From the NCBI GenBank assembly GCA_038040445.1, contig JBBPIG010000029.1, forward strand, positions 36,847-87,189: DNA of 50,343 nt. Reading direction: 5' to 3'. The translations under genes and the position numbers were made by a program. Source of the DNA: Acidobacteriota bacterium. Its GTDB lineage: Bacteria; Acidobacteriota; Blastocatellia; UBA7656. The notes beneath the pieces are model-generated. The model searched no databases, was not told the DNA's origin, and was given only the letters and a program-made list of their open reading frames with translations. Positions 9,886-34,048 of this stretch are shown here, piece after piece. Numbering within the stretch: position 1 is the first letter of the stretch; the number at the start of each line of letters is the position of its first letter.

Positions 9886-9991
9886 AACAAGCTAATGGTC
9901 CTTGATTAGAAGCGAGACTTAACTCCCTGGCTTAGTCAACTGGCCGTTTACTGGCGCCTCATGGATACGAGCGCTTGCTGAGAAGGCCGAA

Positions 9992-11934: not shown

Positions 11935-12067
11935 ATTACACGGGAAGAAGGGCAGGGCCTTAGTCTGATGAGGCGGTGATGTTACAAGCTTACCGGTTCT
12001 GGTCAGACTCCCGCCGAGATTGCACAATGTTTAGCCTTATTGCTCCTGGGAATATCAAAGAAGCCTT

Positions 12068-13069: not shown

Positions 13070-13105
13070 GCTATAGAATCAGACGGCAGGTTTTCAATTG
13101 TTCAA

Positions 13106-14224: not shown

Positions 14225-14272
14225 GCACTTTGTTGCTGGTTCGTTCTCGAAGTACACATCCGAACGAGGTTC

Positions 14273-14993: not shown

Positions 14994-15825
14994 TCATCGT
15001 ATGAAAACTGAAGGCACGGGCACATCGCCGTTGATTCCCCAGTTCTGGATTTTGACCGAGCCATTCGAGCTATTGATGATCCACCAGTTTCCATCTGATG
15101 GTCTCCATATTGCCAGGTCAGTCTTGCCATCGCCGTCGTAGTCTCCCGGCACAAGCTCATCTGTGCTCACGCCCCAGCCCTGGAGTCTGCCCCCTCCCGT
15201 GGAGCTGTTGATGATGTACCAGAATCCATCCGAGGGTCGCCAAACAGCCAGGTCTGTCTTCCCGTCTCCGTCATAATCTCCTGGCGCCGGCACATCGCCA
15301 TTGATGCCCCAGTTCTGAATTCTCACAGATCCATTTGAGCTGTTGATTATCCACCAGTTGCCATCCGAAGGTCGCCATATCGCCAGATCAGCCTTGCCGT
15401 CTCCATCGTAGTCTCCTGGAACAACCTTATCGGTGCTCACACCCCAACCTTGGAGTCTTCCTCCTCCTGTAGAACTGTTGATGATGTACCAGAACCCATC
15501 GGACGGTCTCCATACCGCGAGATCAGCTTTGCCGTCTCCGTCGTAATCTGCTGGGACGGGTACATCTCCATTGAGGCCCCAGTTCTGAATTCTGACCGAG
15601 CCGTCGGAGCTATTGATGATCCACCAATTGCCGTCTGACGGCCTCCATATAGCCAAGTCAGTCTTGCCATCTCCGTCATAATCCGCCGGAACGAGCTTAT
15701 CGGTGCTGAGGCCCCAGCCCTGGAACCTACCTCCACCGGTGGAACTATTGATGATGTACCAGAATCCATCCGATGGTCGCCAAACGGCTAGTTCGGTCTT
15801 TGTGTCACCGTCAAATTCGAATGGT
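14994..15825 (-). repeat. Six-unit FG-GAP-like repeat array 1
   Basis: Six tandem 135-bp units code for 45 residues each. Odd units contain [15 protein letters not shown] and QGWG; even units contain [10 protein letters not shown] and QNWG. Each begins with a calcium-loop motif DxDGDGKxDLA. The array ends VPSVFIR, identical to array 3. Confidence 0.9.
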
Positions 15826-16793
15826 GTTCTCCCGCCAGATGCTCCTGCCTGCGCCTGTGTCACCGTGAACACGTGGCCGGCGACGGTCATTGTCCCTGTG
15901 CGAACAGGACCTGTGTTGGCCTCCAGAAAGTAGGTGACTATTCCGTTGCCAATGCCGCCGCTGCCGGAGTTGATGGTGATAAAATCGTTATTTGCTACTG
16001 CTGTCCAATTGCATTCATTTGGCACAGTCACGCTGATGGTGCCGCTGCCTGCGCTAGATGCAAAAGCCCGACTCGCCGGAGAGATTGCCGACTGAAGCGA
16101 CAGCATCGTCTGTGCGGAAACGTCTACTGCGTTGGCCAACTGCTCGCTACGCGCCACGCCTTCACCCTTAACCGCGACGATCGCCCAGGAATTACGAAAG
16201 CAGTAATTGCGAATCTGCGTACTTCCCAATGCTTCTAGCGCTTGATAAAAAGGCTCAATCCACGGAAAAGAGAAGTGCGTACAGGAGTTATCTTGCGTCA
16301 AGCCCGCTTCATCTCCGACTGCCAGCATCACGAGGCCTCCATTTGATAGGCCATCTAAGAAATTGGTTAGATTAGTCATCGCTGTGCCCGTGGTACGGGT
16401 ACCCCAGGTATCGAAATTTTGCGGTGGATGCAGGAAGGCACCTGTGCACGGATCAATCACGACTACATTAAATCCGCGTCCTCCGCCCCCACCGCCCGAC
16501 GCGGAATAGAATTCACCGTTACTCTTAAAAAACTTGGCGAACCCACACGATGTGGATGGGACGGCGCATCCTGCTGAAGTGGCCCGAAATATTGCCGTTT
16601 GAGCAATGGGCGGTTGATAGGCCGGCGCGAAGGCGTTTGTTAATGTGTTGTAGAGCATACGTGGCAGGCGATTCACATTCATAGGGTCGAGAGCAACGAT
16701 TCCAAAGTACTCCTCATTCCCAAAGTTATCAGGGTGCCCGTTGCAGTTCACTTGGTCACAGCCGTCGTTCTGCTGCGAACCAGGGGGCGACAC
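14994..16793 (-). CDS. ILEI/FAM3-like domain, BACON domain and FG-GAP-like repeats (lower half of a broken gene)
   Basis: A 599-codon frame opened by a GTG at 16793, with no signal peptide of its own. Residues about 100-215 resemble the ILEI domain of animal FAM3/POMGNT1/CEMIP proteins: RGFNVVVIDPCTG, FDTWG, TNFLDGL, a DE pair, then ALGSTQIRN and FRNSWAIVAVKG. Residues 236-317 are a BACON beta-sandwich (CNWTAVANNDFITI...RTGTMTVAGHVFTVTQ). Residues 325-599 are six FG-GAP-like repeats. The frame overlaps the upstream gene by 46 bp in the -1 frame, so the two are probably one secreted protein interrupted by an indel, or a chimera of two genes. ILEI domains bind carbohydrate in some animal proteins, which would suit a surface glycan binder; that is inference. 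Confidence 0.7.
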   Translation of the reverse strand: MSPPGSQQNDGCDQVNCNGHPDNFGNEEYFGIVALDPMNVNRLPRMLYNTLTNAFAPAYQPPIAQTAIFRATSAGCAVPSTSCGFAKFFKSNGEFYSASGGGGGGRGFNVVVIDPCTGAFLHPPQNFDTWGTRTTGTAMTNLTNFLDGLSNGGLVMLAVGDEAGLTQDNSCTHFSFPWIEPFYQALEALGSTQIRNYCFRNSWAIVAVKGEGVARSEQLANAVDVSAQTMLSLQSAISPASRAFASSAGSGTISVTVPNECNWTAVANNDFITINSGSGGIGNGIVTYFLEANTGPVRTGTMTVAGHVFTVTQAQAGASGGRTPFEFDGDTKTELAVWRPSDGFWYIINSSTGGGRFQGWGLSTDKLVPADYDGDGKTDLAIWRPSDGNWWIINSSDGSVRIQNWGLNGDVPVPADYDGDGKADLAVWRPSDGFWYIINSSTGGGRLQGWGVSTDKVVPGDYDGDGKADLAIWRPSDGNWWIINSSNGSVRIQNWGINGDVPAPGDYDGDGKTDLAVWRPSDGFWYIINSSTGGGRLQGWGVSTDELVPGDYDGDGKTDLAIWRPSDGNWWIINSSNGSVKIQNWGINGDVPVPSVFIR

Positions 16794-18928
16794 TTTCCAC
16801 CATTGATCAGGTCATGGTCAAAAGTGTGAGTAATGAACAACGACACGGTAAGCTGAGAGATGGCGCTGGCTACCCCCGAGACTGTCACTGGTGATTCAAC
16901 TGTAGACAGATCGGGGATCGGCAGAGTGGTATTGTTGTTGATCCTTACCGGCCCGCTGGGCGAGCCCGTCGCCATTTGGAACGGGATTATGGAGGTCCCG
17001 CCGCTGACGGTCGTTACCGTCAGTGTCAAAGCGATCGTACTTCCACATGGGAAACTAGGCGAGGTGCTCAGCTGAAATGGGGTTGTATTTGTGTCCTTTG
17101 CATTGACGGCGATGTCCGGGTAGGCAGACAGCGCCTGTGAAACGCTGACGCCGGGGGTCGTAGTCGATAGGGTTGCCGAGACTCCGGTAGCAGGGCTCGA
17201 CCCGAAGTTCCTAAGAGTAAAATTCAGGTTGTTGCATTCGTTCCTGTCGATTACACCGTTTCCGTTGCCCCCAGTCGGCAGCCCAGTCCCGGCTAGTGTA
17301 AGGATAGCACCCGGTCCTACTATCGGTATCTTGGCCGAGCGGACGTTTGCGTTCTTGCGCGATGGCGCAGCTATGCTCTGGTCTCGATTATCCCCCCACG
17401 TCGTGTAGAAGAAGTTGCTGTCTGCTGCCATCATGTCGTAGTCGCCCATGTAGGTTGTGTTCACCGCTGGATCTACTCCACGCACCACTGGGAAGGATTG
17501 GTTGGTGATCAGGAAATTAGGTCCGAAAGTAATTGCCGAACCTGAAATACTGCCAATGACTCCGAACCTGTCGATCTGAGAGTTAAAAGGATCGCGTCGC
17601 CGATCATAGAAAGTAATGCACAATGAGGCGCCGTCCGGTGTTAGCGCCAAAGCCGGCATGTACTGATCGTTTATCGTTCCGTCGGTATTGACTGTAACTG
17701 GCCCGCTCCACGTCGAGCCGCCATCGGTTGACTGGGCGAACAAGATATTCGCACGATCCGACCCAGTTGTGCGGTCATTGTAGACCACGTATAGATTCCC
17801 ATTTACCGGGTTTACCGCAGCTTGGGGAAAGGAGTTGGTGCGGAAGCCGCCATTCAGCCCCAGATCTCCGTTTCCGCCAACGCCCAACAGGGTCGCTACG
17901 GCTGTAATTGGTCCGAACGTCGCGCCTTGGTCAGTGGATTTACGCATCGTGATTCGGAAGGGGCTGCTATTGGCATTCCACCAGAATAGGTACACCGCGT
18001 GGTCCGGCCCGACCGTAAGAAACGTGCCCTGGCCCAAGCTATCTATCAGAGTGCCGCCGGTCGGACCCCAAGACAGCCCGTCGTCGGTGGAACGGGTAAA
18101 CGTGATGCCATTCCGTTGGGCGGTATTCGAGAAGTTGCGCCACGCCGCGTATACATTTCCTTGCCCAGGTCCTGGGAAGTTATCTACCGCCAGCCATTCT
18201 TTGTCCTGGAAATCGACGCCGGCAGAAAACCCGGGCGCGGCATTGACCGGCGGTTGGAAAGTCGCCCCGTCGTCCGTCGAGCGAAAGATCAGTAAGTTCT
18301 GCCGTGTGTTGAAGGACAGAGTCGACAGAAATATAGTGGCGGTCGAGTTGCTTCGCGCAAGATTTGGATCTCCCACGTCACCGTCTGAGCCACTAGGGAG
18401 ACTTCCCTTATCGGTCCATGTCGCCGCGCCATCGGTTGATCGCGAGTAGCCAGTGAACTTTCTAGCCGCGCCCAAGAAGGAGCCAGAATCATTAAATGCC
18501 GCGATCACATTCGAGCCGGACCCAATCACCAATGCGGTCTCGCTCTGAGTGTCTTGAGAGGTCACGTCCGCGTTTGGGTCGTTCACCAAAGTATTCCCGA
18601 GCGGGGAAAGTGGGTCATTCCCCACCGGCGTCCCGGGCGCTTCGGTCACCCCAGAGTTCCCAACTATCTTTTTTGAACCCTGGGTCTTTGGACGGAGTGG
18701 TTTGTTCTTGGTGTCCTTGAGATTCACTTTCTTACCAAACTTGACCTCCAAGCCGCTTCTTGCAGCGCCCGAAAGCTGGTTGAACAGCTCGTCGTTGTCG
18801 TACAACCATCTATACTCGTCATCCACTTGTGCCGACGCGCCAGGGATGCTTCGACCTATTAGTGCGAGCAAAGCCCCTGATATGATCAGTATTAAAGCGA
18901 GCACCAGTTGGCGAGATAAATGTTTCAT
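16748..18928 (-). CDS. Secreted sialidase-like (Asp-box) protein with truncated P-domain
   Basis: A 726-residue secreted protein. The ATG at 18928 has GGAGG 9 bases upstream and opens a signal peptide (LSRQLVLALILIISGALLALIG). Residues about 110-490 form a beta-propeller of exo-sialidase type with at least five Asp-boxes (STDGAATW, STDDGATF, STDDGLSW, STDQGATF, STDGGSTW). Residues about 505-640 look like a CARDB-type sandwich. From about 645 a proprotein-convertase P-domain begins (PIPDLSTVESPVTVSG, LFITHTFDHDL) but stops after some 45 of the usual 85-90 residues, and a short out-of-family tail ends at 16748. The catalytic Arg triad of true sialidases is not evident, so this may be a binding propeller. 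The downstream frame at 16793 continues in the -1 phase. Confidence 0.72.
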   Translation of the reverse strand: MKHLSRQLVLALILIISGALLALIGRSIPGASAQVDDEYRWLYDNDELFNQLSGAARSGLEVKFGKKVNLKDTKNKPLRPKTQGSKKIVGNSGVTEAPGTPVGNDPLSPLGNTLVNDPNADVTSQDTQSETALVIGSGSNVIAAFNDSGSFLGAARKFTGYSRSTDGAATWTDKGSLPSGSDGDVGDPNLARSNSTATIFLSTLSFNTRQNLLIFRSTDDGATFQPPVNAAPGFSAGVDFQDKEWLAVDNFPGPGQGNVYAAWRNFSNTAQRNGITFTRSTDDGLSWGPTGGTLIDSLGQGTFLTVGPDHAVYLFWWNANSSPFRITMRKSTDQGATFGPITAVATLLGVGGNGDLGLNGGFRTNSFPQAAVNPVNGNLYVVYNDRTTGSDRANILFAQSTDGGSTWSGPVTVNTDGTINDQYMPALALTPDGASLCITFYDRRRDPFNSQIDRFGVIGSISGSAITFGPNFLITNQSFPVVRGVDPAVNTTYMGDYDMMAADSNFFYTTWGDNRDQSIAAPSRKNANVRSAKIPIVGPGAILTLAGTGLPTGGNGNGVIDRNECNNLNFTLRNFGSSPATGVSATLSTTTPGVSVSQALSAYPDIAVNAKDTNTTPFQLSTSPSFPCGSTIALTLTVTTVSGGTSIIPFQMATGSPSGPVRINNNTTLPIPDLSTVESPVTVSGVASAISQLTVSLFITHTFDHDLINGGKCRPLVRSRTTAVTK

Positions 18929-18978
18929 TAGCAAAAGCCTCCACGGAGGGCGGTGCCGATAATCACGCCCACCTGCGA

Positions 18979-20238
18979 TTGTCATCAACGAGGACTACAG
19001 AGCTGCAATTCGCAACCGGACGCAAGACCACCGATCGAGCCATCAAATTCCTGTTAACGGGGCTCATTGCGTCGATGGCGGGCGTCGCAGTACACAACTT
19101 TTTCATTTTCGATCAGATCCCAACCGGACTCTATTTTTTTGCCTTCCTCGCTTTCGCTCGGGCCGCTTCCAACGTAGCGGACTCACACAACGGTGAGGGG
19201 GAGCGGTCTGGGACCGGAAAAGGGCAGGACAGCGGCTCCCGAATCAAACGCGGCTCCGTGCCGCCACCCAGTGGCCGCAATATGGCAAACAAGAAAGACT
19301 CGATAGGCAGGCGAGCCGCTTCCTGGACTGGATACCTGACCGCTCGTTTGACATTCGCTGTGAGCGCGGCATCAGTTATTCTCGCTTCGTGGTATTCAGT
19401 GTCCCTTTTGGCTGCAGACTCACATATTATGCGCGCATCTGACCCTGCTAGCTCAGGGGAGCTGGATGCGGTCGTGTACCATGGAACCCACGCGACCAAA
19501 AGCGCAGATCCAACGCATGCCTACGACTTCATCTTTGCACGAAGTCTTGCTGTTTGCGCTGATCATCTCGAAGAAGGGCTTGATGCCGATCCTGAAGACC
19601 TGGGCGCAGCACGAAGAGTTGCGCGAGCCAGAGCACTCGAGCTCGCATACAGACACGCACGCCTCTCGCTGACCCACACCTTCGCCCCTGACTCAAGCCT
19701 TGAGCTCTTAGCATATGTGGCTTTGACTTCGGGCGATATTCCGAAGTTGAAGAGGTTTGCGTCGGAAGCGGTGGAATGGGACCCAAACTATTATGCCGCA
19801 CGCTGGCTCCTGGGTGAAGCTTATCTTGCTGAAGGGGAGCGGGAGCTAGCGCGCGAGCAGGCCGAGATCGCTCTAAGTCTTAACCCCACATCGCGCGAAG
19901 CCGGCGCTTTGCTCAAGCGCGCCAGTGAGGACCAGTGTGTGCCAGACCGCCCTCCTGAAGAGGTGGTGCGGCGGTGCCGCGCGCTGACCCAGTCAGGCAA
20001 CACACAGAAGGCACTCCTTAAGTTGCTTCGCACTATCGACGAGTTAAGGGATGCTCGCGAAAGGTGCCCTGATGAATTACAACCCCGATATGAAACAACA
20101 CCACTTTACGAAGAGGTAATGGCCGAATGGCAAACACTCATTCGAGATGAGCCTGACGCACCGCGGCTGGAAACGATTCGTAAGAGGATCGAGGTGCTAA
20201 AGAAGAGTAACCTTTTGCGAGCCGCTGGACACTACTGA
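18979..20238 (+). pseudogene. C-terminal remnant of an O-antigen ligase-like protein with TPRs
   Basis: A 419-codon frame beginning at a TTG (18979). It opens in the middle of a recognisable fold: LLTGLIASMAGVAVHNFFIF...LYFFAFLAFARAASNVA matches the last membrane helices of Wzy/WaaL-type O-antigen ligase proteins. One more helix (about 118-140) and a TPR-like helical domain follow (about 170-320; SLELLAYVALTSGD, NYYAARWLLGEAYLAEGE). The expected eight to ten N-terminal helices are missing. Only 50 bp separate its start from the divergent gene at 18928, leaving little room for a promoter. It is therefore probably a 5'-truncated relic of the polysaccharide cluster. It has no internal stops, so recent loss or a residual function is possible. 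Confidence 0.65.
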
Positions 20239-20340
20239 ACCAATCGCAGGGCCGCGCGCGACGATGCAGCCATGGTCTCAAGGTTTTGTGATCGAAGGGA
20301 ATGTGTTGACATCATTCCCGAAATCACTCCATCAGCACGT

Positions 20341-20374
20341 CGGTTCTCTCGACGTTGAACCGTTCCGAGAACCG
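20341..20374. terminator. Hairpin between convergent genes
   Basis: CGGTTCTC (20341-20348) pairs with GAGAACCG (20367-20374) across an 18-base loop, in the 149-bp gap between the convergent genes ending at 20238 and 20388. A short T-rich stretch follows on the plus strand. It may act as a bidirectional terminator; the long loop makes it weak. Confidence 0.3.
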
Positions 20375-20387
20375 TTTGGTGCTTTGA

Positions 20388-21209
20388 TCACTCAGATGCT
20401 GGCACGGGTTTATCTGAGCTCAGACCCCACTGCTGGGTCCGGACAGAACCATTCGAGCTGTTTATGATCCACCAGTTTCCATCTGATGGTCGCCATATTG
20501 CCAGGTCAGTCTTGCCATCTCCATCGTAGTCTCCAGGTACAAGCTTATCGGTGCTCACGCCCCAGCCCTGGAATCTTACTCCTCCTGTAGAGCTGTTGAT
20601 GATGTACCAGAATCCATCCGATGGCCGCCATACGGCAAGGTCTGCCTTGCCATCGCCATCATAATCTCCTGGAACAGGCTTATCTCCGTTCAGTCCCCAG
20701 CTAAAGACTCTGACACTGCCGTTTGAGCTATTGATGATCCACCAATTGCCATCTGAAGGTCGCCATATCGCTAAATCAGTCTTGCCATCTCCATCGTGGT
20801 CTGCAGGAACAACCTTATCGGTGCTCACACCCCAGCCCTGGGATCTGCCTCCTCCTGTAGAACTGTTGATGATGTACCAGAACCCATCGGACGGTCTCCA
20901 TACCGCGAGATCAGCTTTGCCGTCTCCATCGTAATCCGCAGGAACAGGCACGTCGCCGCTGAGCCCCCAGTTTTGGACCCTTGCAGTACCATTCGAGCTG
21001 TTTATGATGTACCAATTTCCTTCCGACGGACGCCATACAGCAAGATCGGTTTTGCCGTCTCCGTCGTAATCGGCGGGGACGAGCTTATCGGTGCTCACGC
21101 CCCAGCCCTGGAACCTGCCTCCCCCAGTCGAGCTGTTAATGATGTACCAGAAGCCATCGGACGGTCTCCACACTGCTAAATCGGTTTTTGTATCGCCGTC
21201 GAAGTCGAA
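20388..21209 (-). repeat. Six-unit FG-GAP-like repeat array 2
   Basis: Same 6 x 135 bp organisation as array 1, again alternating two unit types. The second unit is an intermediate form (EGNWYIINSSNGTAR). It ends with the tail KPVPASE instead of VFIR. Confidence 0.9.
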
Positions 21210-24200
21210 GAGATTGCTGCCGAAAATGCCCTTCTGTGTTACGGTGAAAGTCTGGTTGGCAACACTCATAGTTCCCGTGCGCGTGCTTCCTGTATTGGGC
21301 GCGACCATATAGGCTACCGTGCCGTTGCCGCTGCCGCTGTTGCCAGATGATATGGTGATCCAGCTATCATTGCTTGAGGCTGTCCAAGTGCATCCAGTCG
21401 GCGCTGTTACATTGGTCGCGCCCACTCCGCCGCCGCTACCGTAGCCCGCGCTGGTCGGCGAGATACTCGCGGTACAAACCCCTGCCTGAATCACTGTGAA
21501 GGTTTGACCGGCGATGGTCATAGTACCTGTACGCATCACTCCCGTATTAGCTGCTACATTGTAGAATACCGACCCATTGCAGCAGTTGGAACTGAAAGTG
21601 ATGGTGATCCAACTAGCGTTGCTGGTAGACGTCCACGCGCAATTGGCTCCCCTATTCACGAACACGTTGCCGCTGCTACTGGCGGAGGAGAACGATTGAC
21701 TCATTGGAGATAGAGTTGTCGCCGGATTGGTAGCAGTAGTTGTCGCCATCGCAGAGTTATCGCTGGTATCGGGATCAGTGGCCGAAGACTCTACTGTGGC
21801 AGTATTGGTGATCATCACACTGCTAGGAATTGAACAGCTAACTATCGCACCGATCGTCATGTTCACGGATGCGTCAACATCCAGGGAGTTGAAAGTAAAG
21901 GTAACATTGTTACCGGCATGGTTGCAGGAACCAAATGACGAACTACAGAAATTGAATATTGTCGATGACGGAAGGTCGTCGCTCACTATGACTGATGAAG
22001 CCGGCTCAGGGCCCATGTTAGTGACCGTAATGTTATAGCTAATATTCGAGCCTGCTACGCCCGAGTCTGGCGCAGTCATAGTGATCGTAAGGTTAGACGC
22101 GAGACTCGGCGTGACGACGAGTTTAGTGATGAACGCATCGGGGCTGAAACCAACTAAACCGTCTTGGAAGACTTCGGGGGTTGCCGGAAAATTCTGTGAC
22201 TGAGTCGTTCCAGTGACGTAGGCGCTACCGGGCGAGTCGACAGCGATGCCGAGCCCTTGATCGAAGCTAGAGCCACCGAGATATGTGGAGTAAACGAAAG
22301 CCGTTGCGTCCGCATTCAGCTTTGTTATGAATGCATCAGTACTAAAGCTGCTGATGGTCTGGAAGACGCCAGCCGTTGTAGGAAAGTTACCCGAGCTGGT
22401 CTGACCTGTCACGTAGGCATTGCCCGAACTATCAATGGCGATCGCAGAGGCCGCGTCAAAAGAGCTTCCTCCGAGAAGTGTTGAGTAAACCAGCGCTGTG
22501 CCTGCCGCATTTAACTTTGTGACGAAGGCGTCGGTGCTGCCGGCGGCGGCGCCGGAATAAATAATAGTCGCATTGATAGGATCGATAGCGAGTGTGTTGA
22601 CAAACGCACCGGCCAAACCATTGTTCACGGGGCTCCACGCGCTTCCGCCGTTGGTAGATTTGAACACACCGTTTCCTGTACCGGCATAGATGGTGGATGA
22701 GTCCGCCGGGGAAATAACCAGAACATTCACAGATCTGTTAGTGAGGCCCGTGTTGATGCCGCTCCAAGTCGTGCCGCCATCAGTGCTCTTAAGCGCACCA
22801 TTATCTGTGGCTGCATATAAAGTAGAAGGGATTAATGGGTCGATAACCAGGCTTGTAATATTGGTATTGGTCAAACCGGTGACGTTCCAGTTACTGCCGC
22901 CGTTCGTGCTCTTGTAAACGCCGCCGAAACTGAGGCCCACGTAAATGTTGGACGTGGTAGTAGGATCTATGGCCAGCACATTGATAAAAAGGCCCTGATT
23001 CAGACCGACATTGGCGCTCGTCCAACTGGCGCCGCCATTGGTGGTCTTAAAGACACCCTGGTCTGTGCCTGCATAGATAACGGAGTGATTCGCAGGATCG
23101 ATATTCAAAGCATTTACGGTCATGCCGTTCTCGCCAGTGTTTATGGCTTTCCATGTGCTCCCGCCATTTGTGCTCCGGAAAACGCCGCGATTGGTGGTGC
23201 CGAGATAAAGGAGTGATGAGCTCGCGGAATCAACCGTGACGGTCCTGATTTGGAGGTCAGTCAAGCCAGAGTTGATGGCGCTCCAGTTATCGCCTCCGTT
23301 CGTGCTTTTGAAAATGCCGCTGCCTGCTGTGCCTGCAAAAACAGTTGTTGGATTCGAAGGATCGACAGCCAGCGAGGTGATTGTCCAGTTAGTTAGGCCG
23401 GTGTTAATTGCCCTCCAACTGGCTCCGCTGTTGGTCGTCTTTGCCGCTCCCCCATTACCAACGCGCACCACGCCGGTCGTTGTCGGGAAACTGCTCGAGG
23501 TCGTAGACCCCGTTATGTAAACCTCGCCTGAAGCTGTCTGAGCGATGCTGAAGCCGGTCTCATCACCGCTGCCGCCGAGGTATGTAGAATAAAGCAGAGC
23601 CGTGCCTGTGTTGTTGATCCTCGTAATGAAACTATCAGAGGAGCCACCGAACGTGGCCTGGTAAGCGCCCACACTTACGGGGAAGTTAGTCGAAAAAGTA
23701 ACGCCCGCGACTACAGCGTTACCGGATGTATCTATAGCGATGCCGTTGGCCCCATCGGAGTTTGATCCCCCGAGATATGTAGAATAAGCGAGAGCCGTGC
23801 CGGCGCTGTTAAGCTTGGTGACAAAGGCATCACTGCTGAATCCGTTAAGACTAGTCTGGTAAGCGCCGGCAGTTGTCGGAAAGGTGGTCGAATTCGTGAG
23901 GCCAGCAATAAAAGCGTTGCCGGATGGATCTATAGCAATGCTATTCCCCTGGTCGCCGCCCGATCCTCCAAGATATGTAGAATAGACCAGAGCTGTGCCT
24001 GTGCTATTGAGCTTGGTGACGAAGGCATCATTGGCGAATGAACTGCTCAACGCAACCTGGAAAGCGCCGGGCGTCGTCGGGTAGTCGCTCGAACTCGTAA
24101 AGCCTGTGACAAAGGCATTGCCTGTAGAATCCACGGCGATGCTATTGCCATTATCATCCGAAGCCCCGCCTAGATATGTCGAATAGATGAGCGCTGTTCC

Positions 24201-25301: not shown

Positions 25302-25779
25302 TGGTACCTTGGCACAAACCGCTCCCTATCTAATAAACAAGTGCCGCCTGATATTTACGGCAAGCAGAAGTTTTGACTCGGCGACTCCTGTCAGATCATC
25401 TTCTATCGAACTTGAAAATGAGCGGCCAGAGTTACTGTGAGAGGATTCCAAGCTCGTCAGACCTTCCCCAAACTGACAAAAAGACCTGTCGCCGAGTTTT
25501 CGCGATCGCTCCAAACAACTGGATCACGTTCAATTCAATTTGCGTCCTTCAGAAAAGTATACCCTGGGAAGGGCCAGAGCGGTGCATCGTATGCGAGGTC
25601 AATAGGACTGTCAAGGGGACTCTCGCCAGCCTCAATCTCGCCGAGCACCCGTAAGGATGACGCCCTCTATTGTTCGGCGCCGATGCCGAGAATGCGGAGG
25701 CCGGCGCGTGGCCAACCCAATCATAGCCGGGAACAGTGGTAGAACATTAAGTTGTCCGACCATTTACGACAGTACTACA
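25302..25779. other. Intergenic spacer between two giant genes
   Basis: This 478-bp spacer lies between two minus-strand genes. It contains the short gene-end remnant at 25667-25717. I see no other coding signal, RNA or clear promoter for the gene starting at 25301. Confidence 0.5.
25667..25717 (-). pseudogene. Remnant of the 3' end of a GT2-methyltransferase gene
   Basis: The minus strand encodes WPRAGLRILGIGAEQ followed by a stop, closely matching the last residues WPWTGLSIIGIGIKE of the gene ending at 28470. By eye about 30 of 40 bases match. An upstream stop follows within a few codons, so only the tail survives. It lies on the far side of the sugar dehydrogenase gene from the intact copy. 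Confidence 0.5.
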
Positions 25780-26609
25780 TCATCTAATGAAAACTGAAGG
25801 CAGAGGCACATCGCTACTCAGACCCCAGTTCTGTATTTTGACCGTGCCGGTCGAGCTGTTAATGATCCACCAGTTTCCATCTGATGGTCGCCATATTGCC
25901 ACGTCAGTCTTGCCGTCGCCATCGTAGTCTCCCGGTACAAGCTTATCAGTGCTCAGGCCCCAGCCCTGAAACCTTCCTCCGCCCGTTGAGCTGTTTATGA
26001 TGTACCAGATTCCATCCGATGGACGCCAAACAGCCAGGTCTGTCCTCCCGTCTCCGTCATAATCTCCTGGAACAGGCACATCTCCATTGAGCCCCCAGTT
26101 CTGAACTTTCACGGATCCATTTGAGCTGTTGATTATCCACCAGTTTCCATCTGAAGGTCGCCATATTGCCAAATCAGTCTTGCCATCGCCATCGTAGTCT
26201 CCCGGAACCAGCTTATCGGTGCTCACACCCCAGCCCTGGAATCTTCCTCCTCCTGTAGAACTGTTGATGATGTACCAGAATCCATCCGATGGTCGCCACA
26301 CAGCCAAGTCTATCTTACCGTCTCCGTCGTAATCTGCCGGGACGGGTACATCTCCATTGAGGCCCCAGTTCTGGAGTCTCAATGAACTGTCGGAGCTATT
26401 TATGATCCACCAATTGCCGTCTGATGGTCGCCATATTGCTAGATCGGTGTTGCCGTCGCCATCGTAGTCACCGGGAACAAGCTCATCGGTGCTGAGGCCC
26501 CAGCCTTGGAATCTGCCACCTCCAGTAGAACTGTTGATGATGTTCCAAAATCCATCTAATGGTCGCCATACTGCTATGTCCGTCCTGCTATCTCCATCGA
26601 AGTCATATA
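25780..26609 (-). repeat. Six-unit FG-GAP-like repeat array 3
   Basis: Same 6 x 135 bp alternating organisation as arrays 1, 2 and 4. The first unit has diverged ([11 protein letters not shown]). The terminal VPLPSVFIR is nearly identical to the end of array 1. Confidence 0.9.
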
Positions 26610-28047
26610 GGTTTCCCTTGGCGGTCTGCGAGACTATGAAAGTTTCGCCGGCTATGGTTATCGTGCCGGTGCGAGATCCTCCGGGGTTAGCCGCCACGGA
26701 ATAGTTGACCGCTCCGGTGCCTGTCCCGGCGCTTCCGGCCGTGATGGTGATGAAGCTAGCGTTGCTTATAGCAGTCCAACTGCAGTTCTCGGGCGCAGTG
26801 ACGACCGTGCTTGCAGGTCCTCCGCGTGCGTTGAAAACTCGACTCGATGGCGAAACAAAAAAGGAACAGGGTGAATCGGGATTAACAATCCGGTGAACTG
26901 TGCCTCCAAGCCCGACGACGTAAATCTCACCAGCTTCGTCTTCGCCAAACGACGATATAGTGAGAGCCGTATCGAGCAACACACTCTGGGAGCCGTTCTG
27001 CAGCACGAATATCTCGCCCGTACAAAGGTCACCATACACATAGGCTCCGCTCGGCAGTGTCCCGATGGGCCCGCGGTATACATATCCGCCAACTATTGAA
27101 CAGCCTACTGCGTGCCCGTATTCGGCTATCGGGAAAACAAAACCGCTCCCGCTGCACAGAGGAGGGTCAATATTGGTACAGTGGTTGCCCTCAAACACGC
27201 GCCAGCCAAAATTGCCTCCTCGAGTGACAATATCGATCTCTTCGAATGCATTCTGTCCGACGTCTGCAACGTAGAGTTGGCCCGTATTCCGGTCGAACGA
27301 AAAGCGCCACGGGTTCCGCAGCCCGTAAGCAAAGATCTCGTCGCGACCGGGAGTGGGGCCGAAGAATGGATTGTCTGAGGGTGATGAATAGGGCACCGAA
27401 CCATTCGGATGATCGATGTCTATCCGAAGTATCTTGCCTAAAAGCTCGTCGATATTCTGCGCGCGGTTGCCGGGATCGTTGCCCGATCCTCCATCGCCCA
27501 TCGCCACGTAAAGAAAACCATCGGCCCCGAATTCAATCATGCCGCCGTTGTGATTTGCGAAAGGCTGAGCGATCGTAAGAATCACGGTCTCTTCCGTGTC
27601 TGCTATGTTCGGATTACTCTGCGATACGTGATACTCGGCAATCACAGTCGCGCCATCAGGCTGACGGGTGTAGTCGACGAACAAACGGCCATTGATTCCG
27701 AACCGCGGATGAAAGGCGAGACCTAGCAGACCTTGCTCCCCACCAAACAAGACTTTTGATGTGATGTCCAGGAACACTGTGGGCGAGTTCTGTCCCGGCT
27801 GGAGCATCGTGATCCTGCCGGGCTGTTCCACTATTAAGAGCCGATTACTGCCGTCGTGTGCATTCGTCACATAAAGCGGGGAGGACAGGCCTGTCGTAAC
27901 TACTGGCTGAAGTTGAATAGTTGTCAGCGGCGTTGAAGCAAGCGACGCAGTCGATCGATCTGGGCTCTCCATTAGAGAGATTAGTATCAAAAAGATGGTA
28001 GATGAATGCGCAAGCCATCGGACTTTTCTAATCCCTGGTTTAGCCAT
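25780..28047 (-). CDS. Secreted PQQ-type sugar dehydrogenase with BACON and FG-GAP-like tail
   Basis: A 755-residue protein started by an ATG with AGGAG five to six bases upstream. An N-terminal hydrophobic segment at about 12-25 is a likely signal peptide. Residues about 45-395 are a six-bladed glucose/sorbosone dehydrogenase-type propeller: [68 protein letters not shown] and [11 protein letters not shown]. Family members oxidise sugars with PQQ in the periplasm; some homologues have no known substrate. The family's catalytic-type His is the one in NHNGG. Residues about 402-480 are a BACON domain and 486-755 are six FG-GAP-like repeats. Neither the cofactor genes nor an electron acceptor gene are in this window. 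Confidence 0.82.
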
Positions 28048-28469
28048 TCTAACTCTCCTCCGGTGTCATTAGGTTGGGGGCAACCGACCAGTCTACGAAG
28101 GCGGGGCGACCAGAAGCGTTCGTTTTGCGATTCTATCTTTCAAGTCAGTCCCCGTTCCCACGCAGTGTTCAGTTTCGTTGCCGAGGACTTGGCTTGTTCC
28201 AATGCGATTGTACCAAAGAAGCATCGAAAGTACAGAAAAAGCGTTTCGACTCTGGCTATCGAGGTCAAACAATCAAGAGGAAACCCCTTGCGAGAACCAA
28301 GCTCGCTAGAGAAGGCGGCCAAAGGCATCAACGTTGTGCCTACCGTCAACTCCGAAGGCAACGCCGAGTGCTACTTACTGCTGTTTTTGAAAAGATCGGA
28401 CGCGTAAAGGAGAGCTCGAAATGAATTATCGCGCAGTCTCGCCGGAGAGTCTTTAGCAGATTAGAAGGT
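28048..28469. other. Intergenic spacer, nothing recognised
   Basis: This 422-bp spacer is upstream of the sugar dehydrogenase gene and downstream of the GT2-methyltransferase gene, both on the minus strand. Several short frames exist on both strands but none shows a conserved motif or a good ribosome site. The promoter of the gene starting at 28047 must lie here, but I cannot assign it. Confidence 0.4.
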
Positions 28470-29939
28470 CTATTCTTTGATGCCGATGCCGATGATGCTG
28501 AGGCCGGTCCAAGGCCATATGTGATCAATGCCTCTCAGGATTGGCATCATCGTGTCTATTATTTTGAGTTGCACGCGAGAAAATCTTCTTCGGCGCAGCA
28601 GCTTGCCGTTAAGCCACCAGCCCGGGACAGAAAAACGGTTGAAGTCGAATATCCTCTCAATGCGAAACCCGGTGGTGGTGAGTGCCTGCTCTAGCCCGGC
28701 GACTGTGTACCGCTCGCGGTGTTCCAGCGCCTCGTCTAGCGTGCCGTACAGCGCGGGGTGGTGCGGAACTAGTATGATTGCTCGCCCGCCCGGTTCAAGC
28801 GCAGACCACAGATTACTTAACGCCTGCCGCTCATCGGGCAGGTGCTCAAGCACGTTGAGCATCACCACCGTATCGAACTGACCTTCCAAGCCGGCGAAGT
28901 GTTCTCGGTTCCCAGCATCAATATGCATCACCCGCAGATAAGGCTTGCCGATAGAATACGAACGCAGGTAGTGCAGATAGTTAGGATTTATGTCCGAGGC
29001 AACGTATAACTCGCGAGGAATGAATTGGTTTGTCAGATTCCCGATGCCGGCGCCTATTTCCAACACTCGATCGCCAATATGCGGGCGCAATACATCGGCC
29101 GTGTACATATTAAATCGCCGCGCCCGCTCAAGCTTTATGAGTATGTGCGATCCGTATTGGTCTTCCTTATAAAGATCATCTATTAGCCAAAAACGGATCA
29201 TCGCAAGAAGAGCGAGTATGCCGTCGCGGGCGCGAATCTTCTTTCCTTCTTCGTAGCTTCGCGGCAAGTAGCGAATTGGCGCTTCAAAGATGCGGGCGCG
29301 GCGCTTCGCTAGCTTGAACACGATTTCTACTTCGAAACGAAAGTCACTGCTACGCAGAGGGATGGATTTTAACAGTGTCGCGTTCACCGCCTTGTAGCAA
29401 GTCTCTATGTCGGTCAGCGTAAGATCAGTGAACCAGTTACCTAGGGTCGTCAGCCACTTGTTAAGCATAGTATGCCGATACATCAAGGCTCGGCGATAGG
29501 GTGCCGAGAGGTAGCGCGAACCGAATACAGCATCAGCGCCCTCTTTAGCGAACGGCACGAGCAAAGATGGAATATCCGCAGGATTATATTCAAGATCGGC
29601 GTCGTGGATGATGATGATGTCGCCCGTCGCTTCCTGGATTGCAGTGCGAATCGCAGCGCCTTTGCCTTGATTGCGCCCGTGGCGAAGCAAGGTAATGCGG
29701 TCGTCTTCATTGGCCATCCGTTCCAGAATCTCGCGCGTGCCGTCGGTGCTGCAATCGTCCACTACAATCAGTTCGAGATTGCTGATAACCTCGTGTCCCA
29801 GCGCCAGCACGCGGCGCAAGCTCGCCTCGACCACGTGACGCTCGTTGTACACGGGCACCAAAACACTCAGCCGAAATGAGGTTGCAATGGTGTCCTCATA
29901 TATTGGCAATTGATAAAGGAGCGAATCGGTAGCTTTCAT
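28470..29939 (-). CDS. GT2 glycosyltransferase fused to a SAM methyltransferase
   Basis: A 489-residue cytoplasmic fusion. Residues about 20-240 are a DPM1-like GT2 domain (LSVLVPVYNERHVV, VVDDCSTDGTRE, GKGAAIRTAI, the metal site HDADLEYNP, then VFGSRYL). Residues about 268-460 are a class I methyltransferase (VLEIGAGIGNLTNQF, YVASDINPNYL, FDTVVMLNVLEHLPDE, LEPGGRAIILVPHHPAL). GT2 enzymes of this subgroup charge polyprenyl phosphate; the attached methyltransferase suggests coupled sugar transfer and methylation. There is no C-terminal membrane pair, unlike the gene at 12068. The gene stands alone among secreted-protein genes, over 10 kb from the main glycan cluster. Its start has only a weak ribosome site. 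Confidence 0.8.
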   Translation of the reverse strand: MKATDSLLYQLPIYEDTIATSFRLSVLVPVYNERHVVEASLRRVLALGHEVISNLELIVVDDCSTDGTREILERMANEDDRITLLRHGRNQGKGAAIRTAIQEATGDIIIIHDADLEYNPADIPSLLVPFAKEGADAVFGSRYLSAPYRRALMYRHTMLNKWLTTLGNWFTDLTLTDIETCYKAVNATLLKSIPLRSSDFRFEVEIVFKLAKRRARIFEAPIRYLPRSYEEGKKIRARDGILALLAMIRFWLIDDLYKEDQYGSHILIKLERARRFNMYTADVLRPHIGDRVLEIGAGIGNLTNQFIPRELYVASDINPNYLHYLRSYSIGKPYLRVMHIDAGNREHFAGLEGQFDTVVMLNVLEHLPDERQALSNLWSALEPGGRAIILVPHHPALYGTLDEALEHRERYTVAGLEQALTTTGFRIERIFDFNRFSVPGWWLNGKLLRRRRFSRVQLKIIDTMMPILRGIDHIWPWTGLSIIGIGIKE

Positions 29940-30546
29940 CTTAGATTAAGTTCAACTTCTCGCCCTGGTTTACGACCTTAGCGCAATCATCGAAGTACAC
30001 TAACCCCCTCCGGTGAAGACCTGGTCAATTCTCTTGCTTGTAATCGAATCAAGCCCGCAAACCCATACGCTTATATAAAAGCGTGGTGGGGTACTAAAGG
30101 AGTTCGTATTCTATTAGCATGAATAATGCGTTGTCTAGATGGAGATGAGATGGAGATGGGATGCTGCCTAAACCCGAACTAGGGCCGTAGCTCAAGTATT
30201 GGCAGTTCTAAAGTTTAATTCTGAACAGCGAATGGGGTTCGAGTCGTCGTCGGACTTTGACGCTGATTCGATCCTTCTGGGTTTAACTAGTGGGATCATC
30301 GCAGCATTGTGGAGGGAGGCTTTACTCGGAATCCGGCGTCCAAAGAGTTTCGAGCGCGTGATAATGACCCCGTTCCACCAGTCAAACGGCTGATGAGCTT
30401 ATTCCGCGACGTCGCGCTTGTCACCGACGGCCGCTTCTCGGGTGCGACGCGGGCTGCGTTTTCCTGCAGAGGCTGCTACCGACGAACGGGCCGCATCGGC
30501 CGAGCAGGTATACAAAGCTTTAAGCTACATCAGCGTCCGCTTCGGA
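29940..30546. other. Long spacer with gene debris
   Basis: This 607-bp spacer lies between two minus-strand genes. It contains an ilvD-like fragment (30408-30480) and a small hairpin (ACGCTT 30067-30072 with AAGCGT 30079-30084). No intact gene is recognisable. Confidence 0.45.
30408..30480 (+). pseudogene. Fragment of a dihydroxy-acid / phosphogluconate dehydratase gene
   Basis: Plus-strand codons 30408-30452 read DVALVTDGRFSGATR, the highly conserved signature of the IlvD/Edd dehydratase family. In the next frame, 30451-30477 reads GLRFPAEAA, which can be aligned with the family continuation GL...SPEAA after a frameshift and small deletion. No other part of such a gene is present, so this is a fossil of roughly 70 bp. 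Confidence 0.5.
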
Positions 30547-31368
30547 CTATGGAACTCCGGGCACTGGCTTATCTGCGGTCATGCCCCATTGCTTTGTTGT
30601 CACAGAGCCATTCGAACTGTTTATGATCCACCAGTTGCCATCTGACGGACGCCATACTGCCAGGTCGGACTTTCCGTCTCCGTCATAATCTGCCGGCACC
30701 AGAACATCAGTGACGAGGCCCCAACCTTGGAATCTGCCGCCGCCAGTGGAACTGTTGATGATGTACCAGAATCCGTCCGAGGGACGCCATACTGCAAGAT
30801 CAGCGTTGCCGTCTCCATCATAATCTGAGGGCACTGGCTGGTCTCCGCTCGCGCCCCATTGCTTTGTAGTAACAGAGCCATTCGAACTGTTTATGATCCA
30901 CCAGGTCCCGGTTGATGGACGCCATATGCCCAAGTCGGTCTTTCCGTCTCCATTGTAGTCTGCCGGCACCGGAATATCGGTACTGACACCCCAGCCTTGG
31001 GATCTGCCTCCACCAGTCGAGCTATCGATGATGTACCAAAACCCGTTTGATGGTCGCCATACTGCTAAGTCTGTCTTTCCCTCTCCATCGTAATCTCCTG
31101 GCACTGGCTTATCTCCAGCCAGGCCCCATTGCTGGGATTTGACAGCGCCATCGGAGCTGTTGATGATCCACCAAACTCCAGTGGAAGGACGCCATATCGC
31201 CAGATCAGACTTTCCATCGCCGTCGTAATCGCCTGGCACGGGTATGTCGTTGCTCTCGCCCCAGCCTTGAATTCTACCTCCGCCGGTCGAGCTATTGATT
31301 ATGTACCAGAATCCGTCTGAGGGTCGCCATACGGAAACATCGACCTTTTTGTCCGCGTCGAAATCGCA
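30547..31368 (-). repeat. Six-unit FG-GAP-like repeat array 4
   Basis: Six alternating 45-residue units, the most diverged of the four arrays (first unit [18 protein letters not shown]; even units have TGVWWIINSS or TGTWWIINSS with TKQWG or SQQWG). It ends DKPVPGVP. Confidence 0.9.
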
Positions 31369-33603
31369 AAGTGATTTCGCTAAAGACACGTTAACCGAAA
31401 CGTTTGTCGACATAGCTCCAAAATAGCCCACGCCATCTTGAGCCATTTGCCACTGAAAATTGTAGGCTGCGAGAGTTGTAGGAGCGTTGACGTTGAAAGC
31501 GAAGGTGACATCGGAGCCTGGGGCAACAGACGAACCAAGATCGACTCTATTCAAAGACCAGGTATAGTTGCCTTGCGAATTCTGCGAGCCGAGATAGTAA
31601 CTGCCCGCAGCCCAGGTGCTAGTGCCGCTGTTCCGCATTGTGACGGAAACGCTGTAAGTCCGACCTGCGCCCATCGATGTAGGCACCGTCTGCGAAAGGA
31701 AGACCGCGTTGTTTGTGGGAGGAGGTGCGCTTCCCACTTGAATCGCTACGTTTGTCGACATCTGTCCAAAGAATCCCGTCCCATCATTCTTGTATAGCTG
31801 CCATTGGAAGTTGTGTGTGCCGGATACCGACGGCGCCGTGGCGGTGAAAGTGAGGTCAAGCTGTTGGCCGGGACCGATAGAGAGGTTGACTAACGAGACC
31901 CCGTTGCCGCCCCAGCTTGAGTTGAGCGCCGGGTTCTGCGAAGCCAGGTAGAATACCGAACCTCCCCATGTCTCGGTGCCCGTGTTTAAGAACTTCATGT
32001 TTACGCTCATTGACTGACCGGGTGTTGCAGTCGTGGGCGTCGTCTGCGAAACGAACTGTGAGGCAAGCGGAACGCCAGCCACCACTACGGCAATTGACAA
32101 GGCCTTCTGCGCCGTAGCCGGCACGGCGTCAGTCACCTTGACGGTGAAATTGTAGGTTCCAACTGTAGTGGGGTTGCCGCTGATGACTCCTCCACTGCTC
32201 AGGCCCAGGCCCGGCGGTAACGAGCCCAGACCGGCAACCAGGCTCCAGCCATAGGGCAACGTCCCCCCAGATCCCGTGAGCGTTTGCGAATACGAGGTTC
32301 CGACCGTGCCGCCGGGCAGTGAAGAAGTCACAACCGCCAACGGGCCTGGTCCGCTCGATCCGGGATAGAGGAAAGCAGCGCCGTTGGAGTCGTCCGATCG
32401 GAGTGACGCGCATCGGCCGTCGAAGTGTGCGAACGCGGCCATCGTCGCGGTTGAATCGGCCGAGTGTCCAAACCCCAGCGCGTGGCCGATCTCATGGGTG
32501 GCGACTTCACGAAGGTTGCAGGCATTGCTGAAGTAACAACTCGCCCAAGGATTAAAAGACACGAATCCCTGGGTTATTTGGCCGAATGTTATACCTCCGA
32601 GGACCCTGGTCTGAGAACCACCTCCACTCCATCCTCCGATCGCCAGTATGTTGGCGCAACCAGATGTGGCCTGGTTCATCCCGTCGCAATTGTTGGAGAC
32701 GAGGTTTATGGCGGGAGTGCCGGTTTGCGTGTAGCAACTGTCGAGATTACCGGAAGGGGTCAAATTCAAAGAGCAGCCCGGCACACCTGACCAGGCGCCT
32801 GCAGCGGCCGCCATATCGGCGGCGTTAAGTACAACTGCCGGTGATCCAGGATTAGGATTGATCGTATAGGGAACAGGCTGACCGGAATCGGGCTGAAACC
32901 ATCGTCTGTTCCCCAGAAATGTGTACTCCGGCTGCAACTGATGCTTAGAGCCGACGAAGCCGGGCGGCGAGGCCAGCACGGGAGTGTTCTTGAAGTAAGC
33001 TTCCTCAAAAGCCTGCGAACGTTCCAGATTGACCGCGAGTTTGGTTCGCACCATTTCAGCGTAAGCTAAGAGCTCCATGCGGTCGGTGGTATCACCCTGC
33101 GGCTGGCCTTGAGGGGCCCCTATCACAGTTACGTTTTCGCCGCCGGTATCCCGCACCGCAAATCTATTACCGGTCGTGTCGTCTATCACAAGAGAGAACT
33201 TGCCGAGAAATAATTGATAAGTGCGTAAGCTCCCATCATCGCGAGTGCTCAGATAGAGCAAAACTTTTTCGCCACGCTTAAACTGAGGACTACCGTAGAC
33301 GACGCTGACGCGATCGCCGACAACGCCCCCGAGTTCTTTGATAGTGATTCTCCGCTCGGCTATCTGCCCTTTGATAACCTCACTGACCCGAACTGTTATG
33401 TAGGTGTAAATGCGATCTTCCTGCTCGTCAAGGGAACTCTGGATCTCGACAACTTTGCCGGTGACGATCGCCCTCGCCCCAACGATCATGTCGTCGTCGA
33501 GCGGGCGAATCACTGTAGTCGCCAGCGCAGACTGCGCCGACCACAACAGACATATAGATAGAATTATAGCTTTGAACGAAACTCGATTCAGAACGCGTTC
33601 CAT
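30547..33603 (-). CDS. Secreted matrixin-type metalloprotease with Ig modules and FG-GAP-like tail
   Basis: A 1018-residue secreted protein. The ATG at 33603 is chosen because GGAGG lies 5 bases upstream; a GTG four codons earlier overlaps that site. After a signal peptide, an N-terminal domain (GARAIVTGKVVEI, GEKVLLYLSTR, FLGKFSLV) precedes a zinc metallopeptidase domain with HEIGHALGFGH near residue 370 and a nearby Met (STATMAAF), the metzincin/matrixin pattern. Then come one He_PIG-type Ig domain (about 425-510), two NBR1-type Ig domains (about 525-625 and 640-740) and six FG-GAP-like repeats (about 748-1018). Its first 700 residues are paralogous to the protein at 37449, which lacks the repeat tail. 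Likely role: an extracellular protease held at or outside the cell surface. Confidence 0.85.
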   Translation of the reverse strand: MERVLNRVSFKAIILSICLLWSAQSALATTVIRPLDDDMIVGARAIVTGKVVEIQSSLDEQEDRIYTYITVRVSEVIKGQIAERRITIKELGGVVGDRVSVVYGSPQFKRGEKVLLYLSTRDDGSLRTYQLFLGKFSLVIDDTTGNRFAVRDTGGENVTVIGAPQGQPQGDTTDRMELLAYAEMVRTKLAVNLERSQAFEEAYFKNTPVLASPPGFVGSKHQLQPEYTFLGNRRWFQPDSGQPVPYTINPNPGSPAVVLNAADMAAAAGAWSGVPGCSLNLTPSGNLDSCYTQTGTPAINLVSNNCDGMNQATSGCANILAIGGWSGGGSQTRVLGGITFGQITQGFVSFNPWASCYFSNACNLREVATHEIGHALGFGHSADSTATMAAFAHFDGRCASLRSDDSNGAAFLYPGSSGPGPLAVVTSSLPGGTVGTSYSQTLTGSGGTLPYGWSLVAGLGSLPPGLGLSSGGVISGNPTTVGTYNFTVKVTDAVPATAQKALSIAVVVAGVPLASQFVSQTTPTTATPGQSMSVNMKFLNTGTETWGGSVFYLASQNPALNSSWGGNGVSLVNLSIGPGQQLDLTFTATAPSVSGTHNFQWQLYKNDGTGFFGQMSTNVAIQVGSAPPPTNNAVFLSQTVPTSMGAGRTYSVSVTMRNSGTSTWAAGSYYLGSQNSQGNYTWSLNRVDLGSSVAPGSDVTFAFNVNAPTTLAAYNFQWQMAQDGVGYFGAMSTNVSVNVSLAKSLCDFDADKKVDVSVWRPSDGFWYIINSSTGGGRIQGWGESNDIPVPGDYDGDGKSDLAIWRPSTGVWWIINSSDGAVKSQQWGLAGDKPVPGDYDGEGKTDLAVWRPSNGFWYIIDSSTGGGRSQGWGVSTDIPVPADYNGDGKTDLGIWRPSTGTWWIINSSNGSVTTKQWGASGDQPVPSDYDGDGNADLAVWRPSDGFWYIINSSTGGGRFQGWGLVTDVLVPADYDGDGKSDLAVWRPSDGNWWIINSSNGSVTTKQWGMTADKPVPGVP

Positions 33604-34048
33604 ACTTGCCTCCACCAGAAGGTTCGCGGGCGCTCGCCTTCAGTTAAACTCACAAGCTTGGACAGTAGTTAGGACTTGACGCGTTCCCACAGCTAGGCAG
33701 GGCTCGAAGATCACGGTAGAAAAGGGAGCCAACTGGCCAGCGTCGCCTCTTGTCACAGACAGTCGCTGCTTGATCTTGGATACCTATTTGTCAACCTGCA
33801 AGGGGCTTGCCCGAAAAATGCGCCAGGCACGTTAAATCGGACTTCAGGTCTAAAGCTCAGTGAGGGTTGAACCAGCTCAACCGGGTCAATACCTTCACAA
33901 CACTCTGAGGGGCTTAGCGAGCTTCAGTAGCGGCATTCAAACATAGCACCGTACCATTGTCAACACTTTTGAATAGGACCACACTCTTGATTTGGGATGT
34001 GCGTTCATCTGTTAAAGACGCGTAAGTAAGGTCGGTCCCTGCGCGGCA
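33604..34048. other. Intergenic spacer upstream of the matrixin gene
   Basis: This 445-bp spacer lies between two minus-strand genes and contains direct-repeat copy A (33907-33965). I see no ORF with support and no clear terminator after the epimerase gene. Confidence 0.4.
33907..33965 (-). repeat. Direct repeat copy A flanking the epimerase gene
   Basis: A 59-bp element that matches 35359-35415 with a 2-base gap and only a handful of substitutions. On the minus strand both copies start with TTGACA followed, 9 bases on, by TGCTATG. Each is upstream of a minus-strand gene (matrixin protease here, epimerase for copy B), so a promoter or regulator-binding role is possible; the 12-base gap from TTGACA to TATG is too short for a normal sigma-70 promoter. 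Confidence 0.7.

Follow-up and report, generated by a model that had tools for sequence, protein, structure and literature searches.

Why do four proteins with unrelated front ends finish in the same array of six repeated units? The question is raised by a 50,343-nucleotide stretch (the window; contig JBBPIG010000029.1, here G000:C29:36847-87189) within the 6.75 Mb genome of an Acidobacteriota bacterium of the class Blastocatellia. An earlier note on this DNA had described four such arrays, which we call tails, and had proposed that they serve as a common anchoring or sorting module. Our reading, to which we assign a probability of roughly 0.55 on the basis of sequence comparison and predicted structure, is that the tail is an exchangeable, mostly C-terminal, lectin-like propeller that would retain secreted proteins on glycan. 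The four tails of the window, each ending an open reading frame (ORF), are the following:

14997-15821, minus strand: tail T1, blades ABABAB, C-terminal end of the ILEI ORF P0001
20391-21209, minus strand: tail T2, blades ABABAB, C-terminal end of the DUF7948/SBBP/Sortilin-Vps10/DUF11 protein P0002
25783-26607, minus strand: tail T3, blades ABABAB, C-terminal end of the glucose/sorbosone dehydrogenase (GSDH) protein P0003; the tail that was modelled
30550-31368, minus strand: tail T4, blades ABABAB, C-terminal end of the matrixin-type metalloprotease P0004

Unit structure, copy number and position of the tails

The four arrays were found where they had been reported, each with six FG-GAP-type units of two kinds in strict A/B order, every inner step measuring 45 residues and a stop codon lying directly beyond. 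Mean protein identity of the units is 82-85% for A-A, 76-80% for B-B and 64% for A-B comparisons, alike within and between proteins, and the 90-residue pairs average 82% within a gene and 80% between genes. Tandem Repeats Finder scored the 270-bp period against the 135-bp period at 1007/540, 914/623, 999/488 and 891/368 in the four arrays, and the AB split ranks first of 10 possible splits in each of them by an exact partition test. Chance or artefact as the source of the arrays was rejected, as the unit identities, the exact steps and these scores count against it. Compared as DNA over the full array, T1-T4 are 72-85% identical, which bears out the strong similarity claimed before. All four proteins match Pfam FG-GAP_3 with 68-82 bits (cut-off 26.9), placing them in the VCBS/FG-GAP propeller superfamily. 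Among units with a residue at the position in question, Asp occupies unit position 4 in 99% (n=1010), position 8 in 98% (n=1019) and position 45 in 100% (n=828). Judged by these residues, nearly every unit carries a DxDGDGxxD loop of the calcium type, as had been noted.

Six units are present in 168 of 173 complete arrays, taken from many genera inside and outside the class and mostly from score-ordered matches to a six-unit model, a sample biased toward six. The array ends within 15 residues of the stop in 163 of those 168, a share that is somewhat flattering because the internal arrays L044, L123, L137 and L212 were left out of the 173. Other counts were scored in L045 (three), L129 (five), L208 and L225 (four each) and L091 (seven). 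The last (G019:C41:13500-18000; ORF 979-3390, plus strand) is the sole array scored with the seven repeats of an integrin-type propeller. The 173 remain from 190 arrays after removal of six with a mean unit score below 30 bits (five of them six-unit) and of 11 more in which the first unit extended beyond the ORF start or the ORF was 3'-open; these 11 include the four internal arrays just named (L212 being the same array as L217). A step of 80-115 residues was scored as one missed unit, which concerns two of the 168.

Since a score-ordered search with a six-unit model favours six, we made a census of three genomes (G012, G028 and G032). Here 42 of 44 arrays have six units (11, 16 and 15 by genome); one exception is cut by a contig end, and the other was scored five with a degenerate sixth unit visible by eye. 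These genomes had 54 listed matches, every one scoring more than 100 bits (lowest 115), of which 47 make up the 44 arrays; the seven omitted matches comprise two pieces of counted arrays, four at contig ends and one without a unit run. An earlier pass gave six units in 95 of 106 arrays, the exceptions being, in our reading, mostly cut loci or weaker arrays. The constant copy number that had been proposed is thus near-constant across genomes.

Predicted fold and nearest solved proteins

A model of T3, built on an alignment of 85 tails, reached a mean predicted local distance difference test score (pLDDT) of 97.8 and a predicted template modelling score (pTM) of 0.92, with 18 strands in six repeats. 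When the best 1000 chains by Foldseek were given a second look with VIA-align, the best match was the C-terminal propeller of UmbA4 (9oee_A), superposed over 274 residues with a root-mean-square deviation (rmsd) of 2.9, a Z score of 24.3 and 23% identity. A second tail, from genome G003, whose units follow the order (ABC)x2, was modelled at pLDDT 88.9 and again placed 9oee first (291 residues, rmsd 2.9, Z 24.9). The N-acetylglucosamine (GlcNAc) lectins PVL, AAL2 and PAL came next, at Z of about 15-16. The same lectin groups lead when a sequence profile of the 85 tails is compared with solved proteins (9oee E 7e-16, PVL E 1.5e-5). UmbA/PVL-like propeller lectins are therefore the closest solved proteins in sequence and, among these best 1000 chains, also in fold. 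The closed fold anticipated in the earlier note is also predicted: from the full-length overlay on a six-bladed ring, we infer that the tail is a closed six-bladed propeller.

UmbA4, a lectin of the umbrella particles of Streptomyces coelicolor, shares with the tails its six blades, C-terminal place and DxDGDG-type loops, the full-length superposition, and an aromatic ligand residue at the same blade position. It differs in its low identity, in its longer blades, in pocket positions that diverge between blades, and in sitting in an antibacterial particle that targets other species rather than being shared across many unrelated fronts. According to PMC13274773, the six-bladed propeller of UmbA4 binds a surface glycopolymer of the wall, contacting it through Tyr551 and Trp668 at equivalent blade positions and through Asn633, and altering any of the three weakens the particle. 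This numbering is the 9oee chain index plus 31, indices 520 and 602 being Tyr and Asn as published. By sequence alignment, Tyr551 (index 520) pairs with tail profile position 156, a conserved Trp column, so that an aromatic residue stands at the putative glycan-contact position. For blades 1-6, the corresponding column holds an aromatic residue in 83, 85, 85, 85, 85 and 84 of 85 tails, and across 1020 units Trp accounts for 94% of the residues at this position; inspected by eye, ordinary FG-GAP arrays in the same genome show Val instead. We prefer a lectin-like role because the columns matching the UmbA4 ligand contact are aromatic in nearly all tails.

PVL-type lectins are seven-bladed, free-standing fungal proteins. 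The solved GlcNAc lectins of this type (2bwr, 4up4, 4tqm, 5mb4) resemble the tails in being VCBS-type propellers with a DxDxDG loop, and they bind carbohydrate; unlike the tails, they measure about 400 residues, and their Z scores are clearly lower than that of UmbA4. Bacterial integrin-type FG-GAP propellers, as described in PMC3192720, have an FG-GAP/Cage and calcium motif in each blade, as the tails do, and count seven blades against six. A further likeness is found in the highly repetitive VCBS propellers of PMC9218822, which show ongoing amplification from blades, a family median of six blades, and a blade number that varies within a lineage (3, 4, 6 and 9 in cyanobacterial chitinases). 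The tails, in contrast, stay at six, and their building pieces can be of two or three blades. As that paper gives one case only of amplification from a two-blade piece, the (AB)x3 and (ABC)x2 rings are of interest.

Among the open-access matches listed, we found no description of the tail by title or opening abstract, and nothing pairing FG-GAP with Blastocatellia or 'FG-GAP repeat' with Acidobacteriota. A dedicated curated family was also sought and rejected: NCBIfam yields XAC2610_fam, which stays below its cut-off in the window proteins and matches 81 of 85 tails weakly (best E-value 6.5e-14), together with four other names that are unrelated.

Inner order, fronts and probable exchange of tails

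The 90-residue pair had been taken for the true unit. This holds for all four window arrays and fails as a general rule: by the exact test, 13 of 170 six-unit arrays are (AB)x3, near the chance level of 1 in 10, whereas 63 are (ABC)x2, for which chance is 1 in 15, and 94 are neither. The partition uses simple cut-offs, counts kin arrays separately and holds one array twice (L212 and L217). Since the window has (AB)x3 and so many other arrays have (ABC)x2, the number six is kept while the inner pattern changes; what is conserved is the blade and the number six, not the inner repeat.

The GSDH proteins offer homologous fronts on which ends can be compared. The closest homologue of P0003, in G003 (same family, other genus), is 70% identical in its front and 39% identical to T3 in its tail, and is probably its orthologue. 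Its tail has six units in (ABC)x2 order, with steps of 47, 55, 48, 46 and 55 residues and halves that are 68% identical. A search with the GSDH front gave 30 matches in 22 of 39 genomes. Six carry a six-unit tail (the window, G003, G012, G024, G028 and G032), three end in almost nothing, one (G006) in three related repeats and one (G005) in five BACON-like domains; the remaining 19 have other or short ends within the stretch examined, two being cut by the end of that stretch. One of these two, in G019:C41, probably bears the tail, as a tail match on this contig sits in an equally long open frame. The window's own genome holds a tail-less GSDH paralogue, 70% identical (G000:C14). The G005 homologue (L233, G005:C46) has its five BACON-like domains where P0003 has one BACON domain and the tail, so that C-terminal modules look interchangeable. 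The BACON pattern applied to these ends is insensitive, missing the BACON domain of P0003; the five domains of G005 were independently borne out.

Tails of one genome tend to resemble each other. The nearest tail to each window tail is another window tail (4/4). In four other genomes, tailed GSDH proteins match the P0003 front at 48-56% identity and its tail at 44-50%, whereas the best other tail within the window's genome reaches 88%. A fifth tailed GSDH protein, from G019, shows 37% in the front and 49% in the tail. For P0004 and a tailed protein of G027, the front is 46% and the tail 51% identical, against 79% for the best tail of its own genome. As these tails resemble own-genome tails more than tails on homologous fronts, the fusions seem to predate the tail sequences seen today. 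For 18 of 20 sampled tails of G019, the nearest tail comes from the same genome. Against within-genome likeness as a rule, other genomes show a lower share, and tails often track homologous fronts. Of the spread by recombination that had been suggested, recombination or homogenisation of tails inside a genome is supported. Mobile-element spread is not: with T3 as query, tblastn met no phage and two plasmid records, both weak matches at about 39% identity.

With a threshold of E 1e-40, the tail occurs in 89 of 162 genomes of the class and, in a sample of the phylum, in 40 of 396 genomes, 30 of them inside the class; per-genome numbers in these searches are lower bounds, drawn from the best 15 and best 6 candidates per genome, respectively. 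In the window's family, two of seven genomes have it at that threshold, and the one other examined genome of the same genus has none. Matches at E 1e-3 are most numerous in family f3 and in the f6 genome G019, where they number up to 70 and 88 and include pieces and weaker kinds; the censused f3 genomes hold 11, 16 and 17 arrays. Named genomes with related tails comprise three labelled Acidobacteria or Aridibacter famidurans and one Bdellovibrionales.

Altogether, 131 fronts fall into 37 sequence clusters, and 58 fronts chosen from them match 84 Pfam families, most often di-haem peroxidase and BACON (5 each), GSDH, He_PIG, Rax2 and LVIVD (4 each), then fungalysin, DUF5122, Calx-beta and DUF11 (3 each). 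In a rough test, a signal-peptide-like start was seen in 101 of 110 tail ORFs and in 62 of 134 neighbouring control ORFs. These data agree with the earlier view of one tail on unrelated, mostly secreted fronts, and the fronts of the window are likewise unrelated by Pfam:

14994-16793, minus strand: ORF P0001 (599 aa), ILEI at about 16164-16478, BACON-like domain, tail T1
15852-16007, minus strand: BACON-like domain before T1, under the Pfam cut-off (E 0.0027)
16748-18988, minus strand: ORF P0005, BNR_2 protein, overlapping the start of P0001
20388-25301, minus strand: ORF P0002 (1637 aa), DUF7948, SBBP, Sortilin-Vps10 and DUF11 (Pfam), tail T2
21231-21389, minus strand: BACON domain before T2, second of two (Pfam)
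25780-28047, minus strand: ORF P0003 (755 aa), glucose/sorbosone dehydrogenase domain at about 27067-27882, BACON, tail T3
26626-26778, minus strand: BACON domain before T3 (Pfam)
30547-33615, minus strand: ORF P0004 (1022 aa), matrixin at about 32365-32532, two NBR1-like Ig domains, tail T4
31414-31680, minus strand: NBR1-like Ig domain before T4, in BACON's place (Pfam)

In three of the four proteins the shared block exceeds the array and includes the BACON domain. At the DNA level, T1 and T2, and likewise T2 and T3, become homologous at about this domain; between T1 and T3 the DNA match starts with the array, and protein homology extends back across BACON. T4 has little beyond the tail in common with the others. 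By the rough test, P0002, P0003 and P0004 have a signal-peptide-like start and P0001 lacks one. As P0001 is also apparently 5'-truncated, the secreted status that had been given to all four proteins holds for three at most.

At 16700-16820, the truncated ORF P0005 meets the signal-less P0001. The C-terminal region of P0005 resembles a proprotein-convertase P-domain (by eye, with no Pfam match) and breaks off partway. A single frameshifted gene was considered and rejected: the P-domain-like reading ends early, with no continuation in the next frame (by eye). An ILEI homologue in G006 has an apparent signal peptide start, another C-terminus and no match to P0005. Because the reading stops short and this homologue is unlike P0005, a deletion junction is likelier than a frameshift, and the junction is probably a deletion that fused two secreted-protein genes.

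Elsewhere in the window, a second matrixin gene (37410-40367) has Ig-like domains in place of the tail. At 45757-50343, two ORFs match RHS-repeat (one also DUF6973) beside an ankyrin-repeat ORF, resembling a locus of the polymorphic-toxin type. Beyond the window, the genome holds one further array of the same kind (C6) and one three-unit remnant (C50). The former, L044 (G000:C6:199800-205000; ORF 438-2672, minus strand), has A/B-type units followed by RHS-type repeats (by eye); its array start is out of frame, and an array likewise precedes RHS-type repeats in L123 (G032:C29). The remnant, L045 (G000:C50:1500-4500), has no recognisable front and is apparently a decayed copy.

Proposed glycan retention and the competing explanations

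Genes for glycan biosynthesis lie around the tails:

2-14899, plus strand: glycan-biosynthesis neighbourhood with five glycosyltransferase or PMT_2 ORFs and two methyltransferase ORFs
28470-29939, minus strand: glycosyltransferase-2/methyltransferase gene between T3 and T4
34049-35164, minus strand: UDP-N-acetylglucosamine 2-epimerase gene beside T4

A G003 contig with three tail matches has homologues of the window's first glycosyltransferase (60% identity) and of the epimerase (66%). When 23 window genes were compared with 60 kb of this contig, identity reached at least 60% for the glycosyltransferase, the epimerase and the GSDH front and 28-32% for three further genes, and the rest gave no match at E 1e-15.

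We propose that the tail is a complete six-bladed VCBS/FG-GAP beta-propeller, with one unit per blade, each bearing a putative calcium loop and the conserved aromatic residue. The signal peptide of the front would export the protein, and the ring would then fold on calcium and bind the recurring sugars of a polysaccharide; the simplest candidate is the surface or capsular glycan of the cell itself, produced by the genes nearby. Such binding would hold many different proteins near the cell. A ring of this geometry would close badly with five or seven blades, which may be why the number six is fixed; blade order inside the ring would be free, rewritten by unequal exchange and gene conversion among the tails of one genome.

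Several observations weigh against this proposal. Some arrays are internal, L052 and L167 preceding a P-domain-like end, L044 and L123 RHS-like repeats, and L137 and L212 other long regions. UmbA4 is absent among the best 50 Foldseek rows, a mix of many propellers, and a strong correction for composition bias applies to its sequence match. The conserved Trp might have a structural role, and Trp668 falls beyond the alignment that pairs this Trp with Tyr551. In UmbA4 itself, according to PMC13274773, calcium was not resolved, significant contact was seen at two of six sites, and pocket residues differ among blades; every blade of the tails, by contrast, retains Trp. The test for signal peptides is coarse, as 46% of control ORFs pass it. 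Finally, because tail-rich genomes spread their tails over many contigs, the glycan neighbourhood may be peculiar to the family of the window.

The same lectin could instead be aimed at foreign polysaccharide or other cells and bring secreted proteins to their substrate. The solved proteins nearest to the tail bind sugars that lie outside the wall of their own producer: UmbA4 binds target Streptomyces, and the PVL-group entries are, by title, GlcNAc-binding lectins. The fronts, moreover, include proteases, dehydrogenases and di-haem peroxidases. Nevertheless, fronts with unlike substrates and a near-single tail type in the window genome better fit one self ligand, and in two genera glycan-biosynthesis genes are found close to tail genes, so that we consider a foreign target rather unlikely. 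An outer-membrane export machine reads the C-terminal domains (CTDs) of type IX secretion as sorting signals, and the tail might be such a signal, its fold serving mainly for recognition. Like the type IX CTD, PEP-CTERM and dockerin, it is one C-terminal module on many unrelated secreted fronts; its terminal place in most six-unit arrays, near-fixed length and many copies per genome would suit this role. Those known domains are short signals, short folds or docking pairs, however, and the tail appears to be a whole propeller with a lectin-like face. Homologous fronts lack it in the same genome and in other genera, internal arrays exist, and lectins are the structures closest to it. The five NCBIfam families matched by the 85 tails include no sorting-domain model, and secretion machinery genes were not searched for. 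A sorting signal is thus quite improbable, and the evidence points to glycan binding over a signal read by a secretion machine. Least probable of all, in our judgement, is a ring for protein-protein docking or stabilisation that binds no sugar. Many propellers are scaffolds, the alternation of A and B units could reflect two sorts of contact, and Foldseek, when ranked by E-value, puts scaffold-type propellers such as KICSTOR subunits first. These matches overlap poorly, however (TM score about 0.55, rmsd 6-8); over the full length, lectins match best, and one of them has an aromatic residue at the tail's conserved Trp column.

Retention on glycan therefore remains our preferred reading. More tentatively, and with less than even odds, a bacterial class may have made one six-bladed lectin propeller into a general surface tag: in the genomes richest in tails, a large number of unrelated secreted proteins would bear it C-terminally and be held by it on the cell's own glycan. 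Gene conversion would keep the tails of one genome alike as they co-evolve with that glycan, and ring closure would pin the number six while the ring is rebuilt from single blades, pairs or triplets. A six-bladed ring built as three pairs or two triplets on homologous proteins offers a natural test of ring evolution, in which one could measure how strongly closure fixes blade number. If retention on glycan is correct, a whole bacterial class would have a glycan-based means of keeping its secreted proteins at the cell, marked by a searchable sequence, and a role would be suggested for many of its unnamed secreted proteins.

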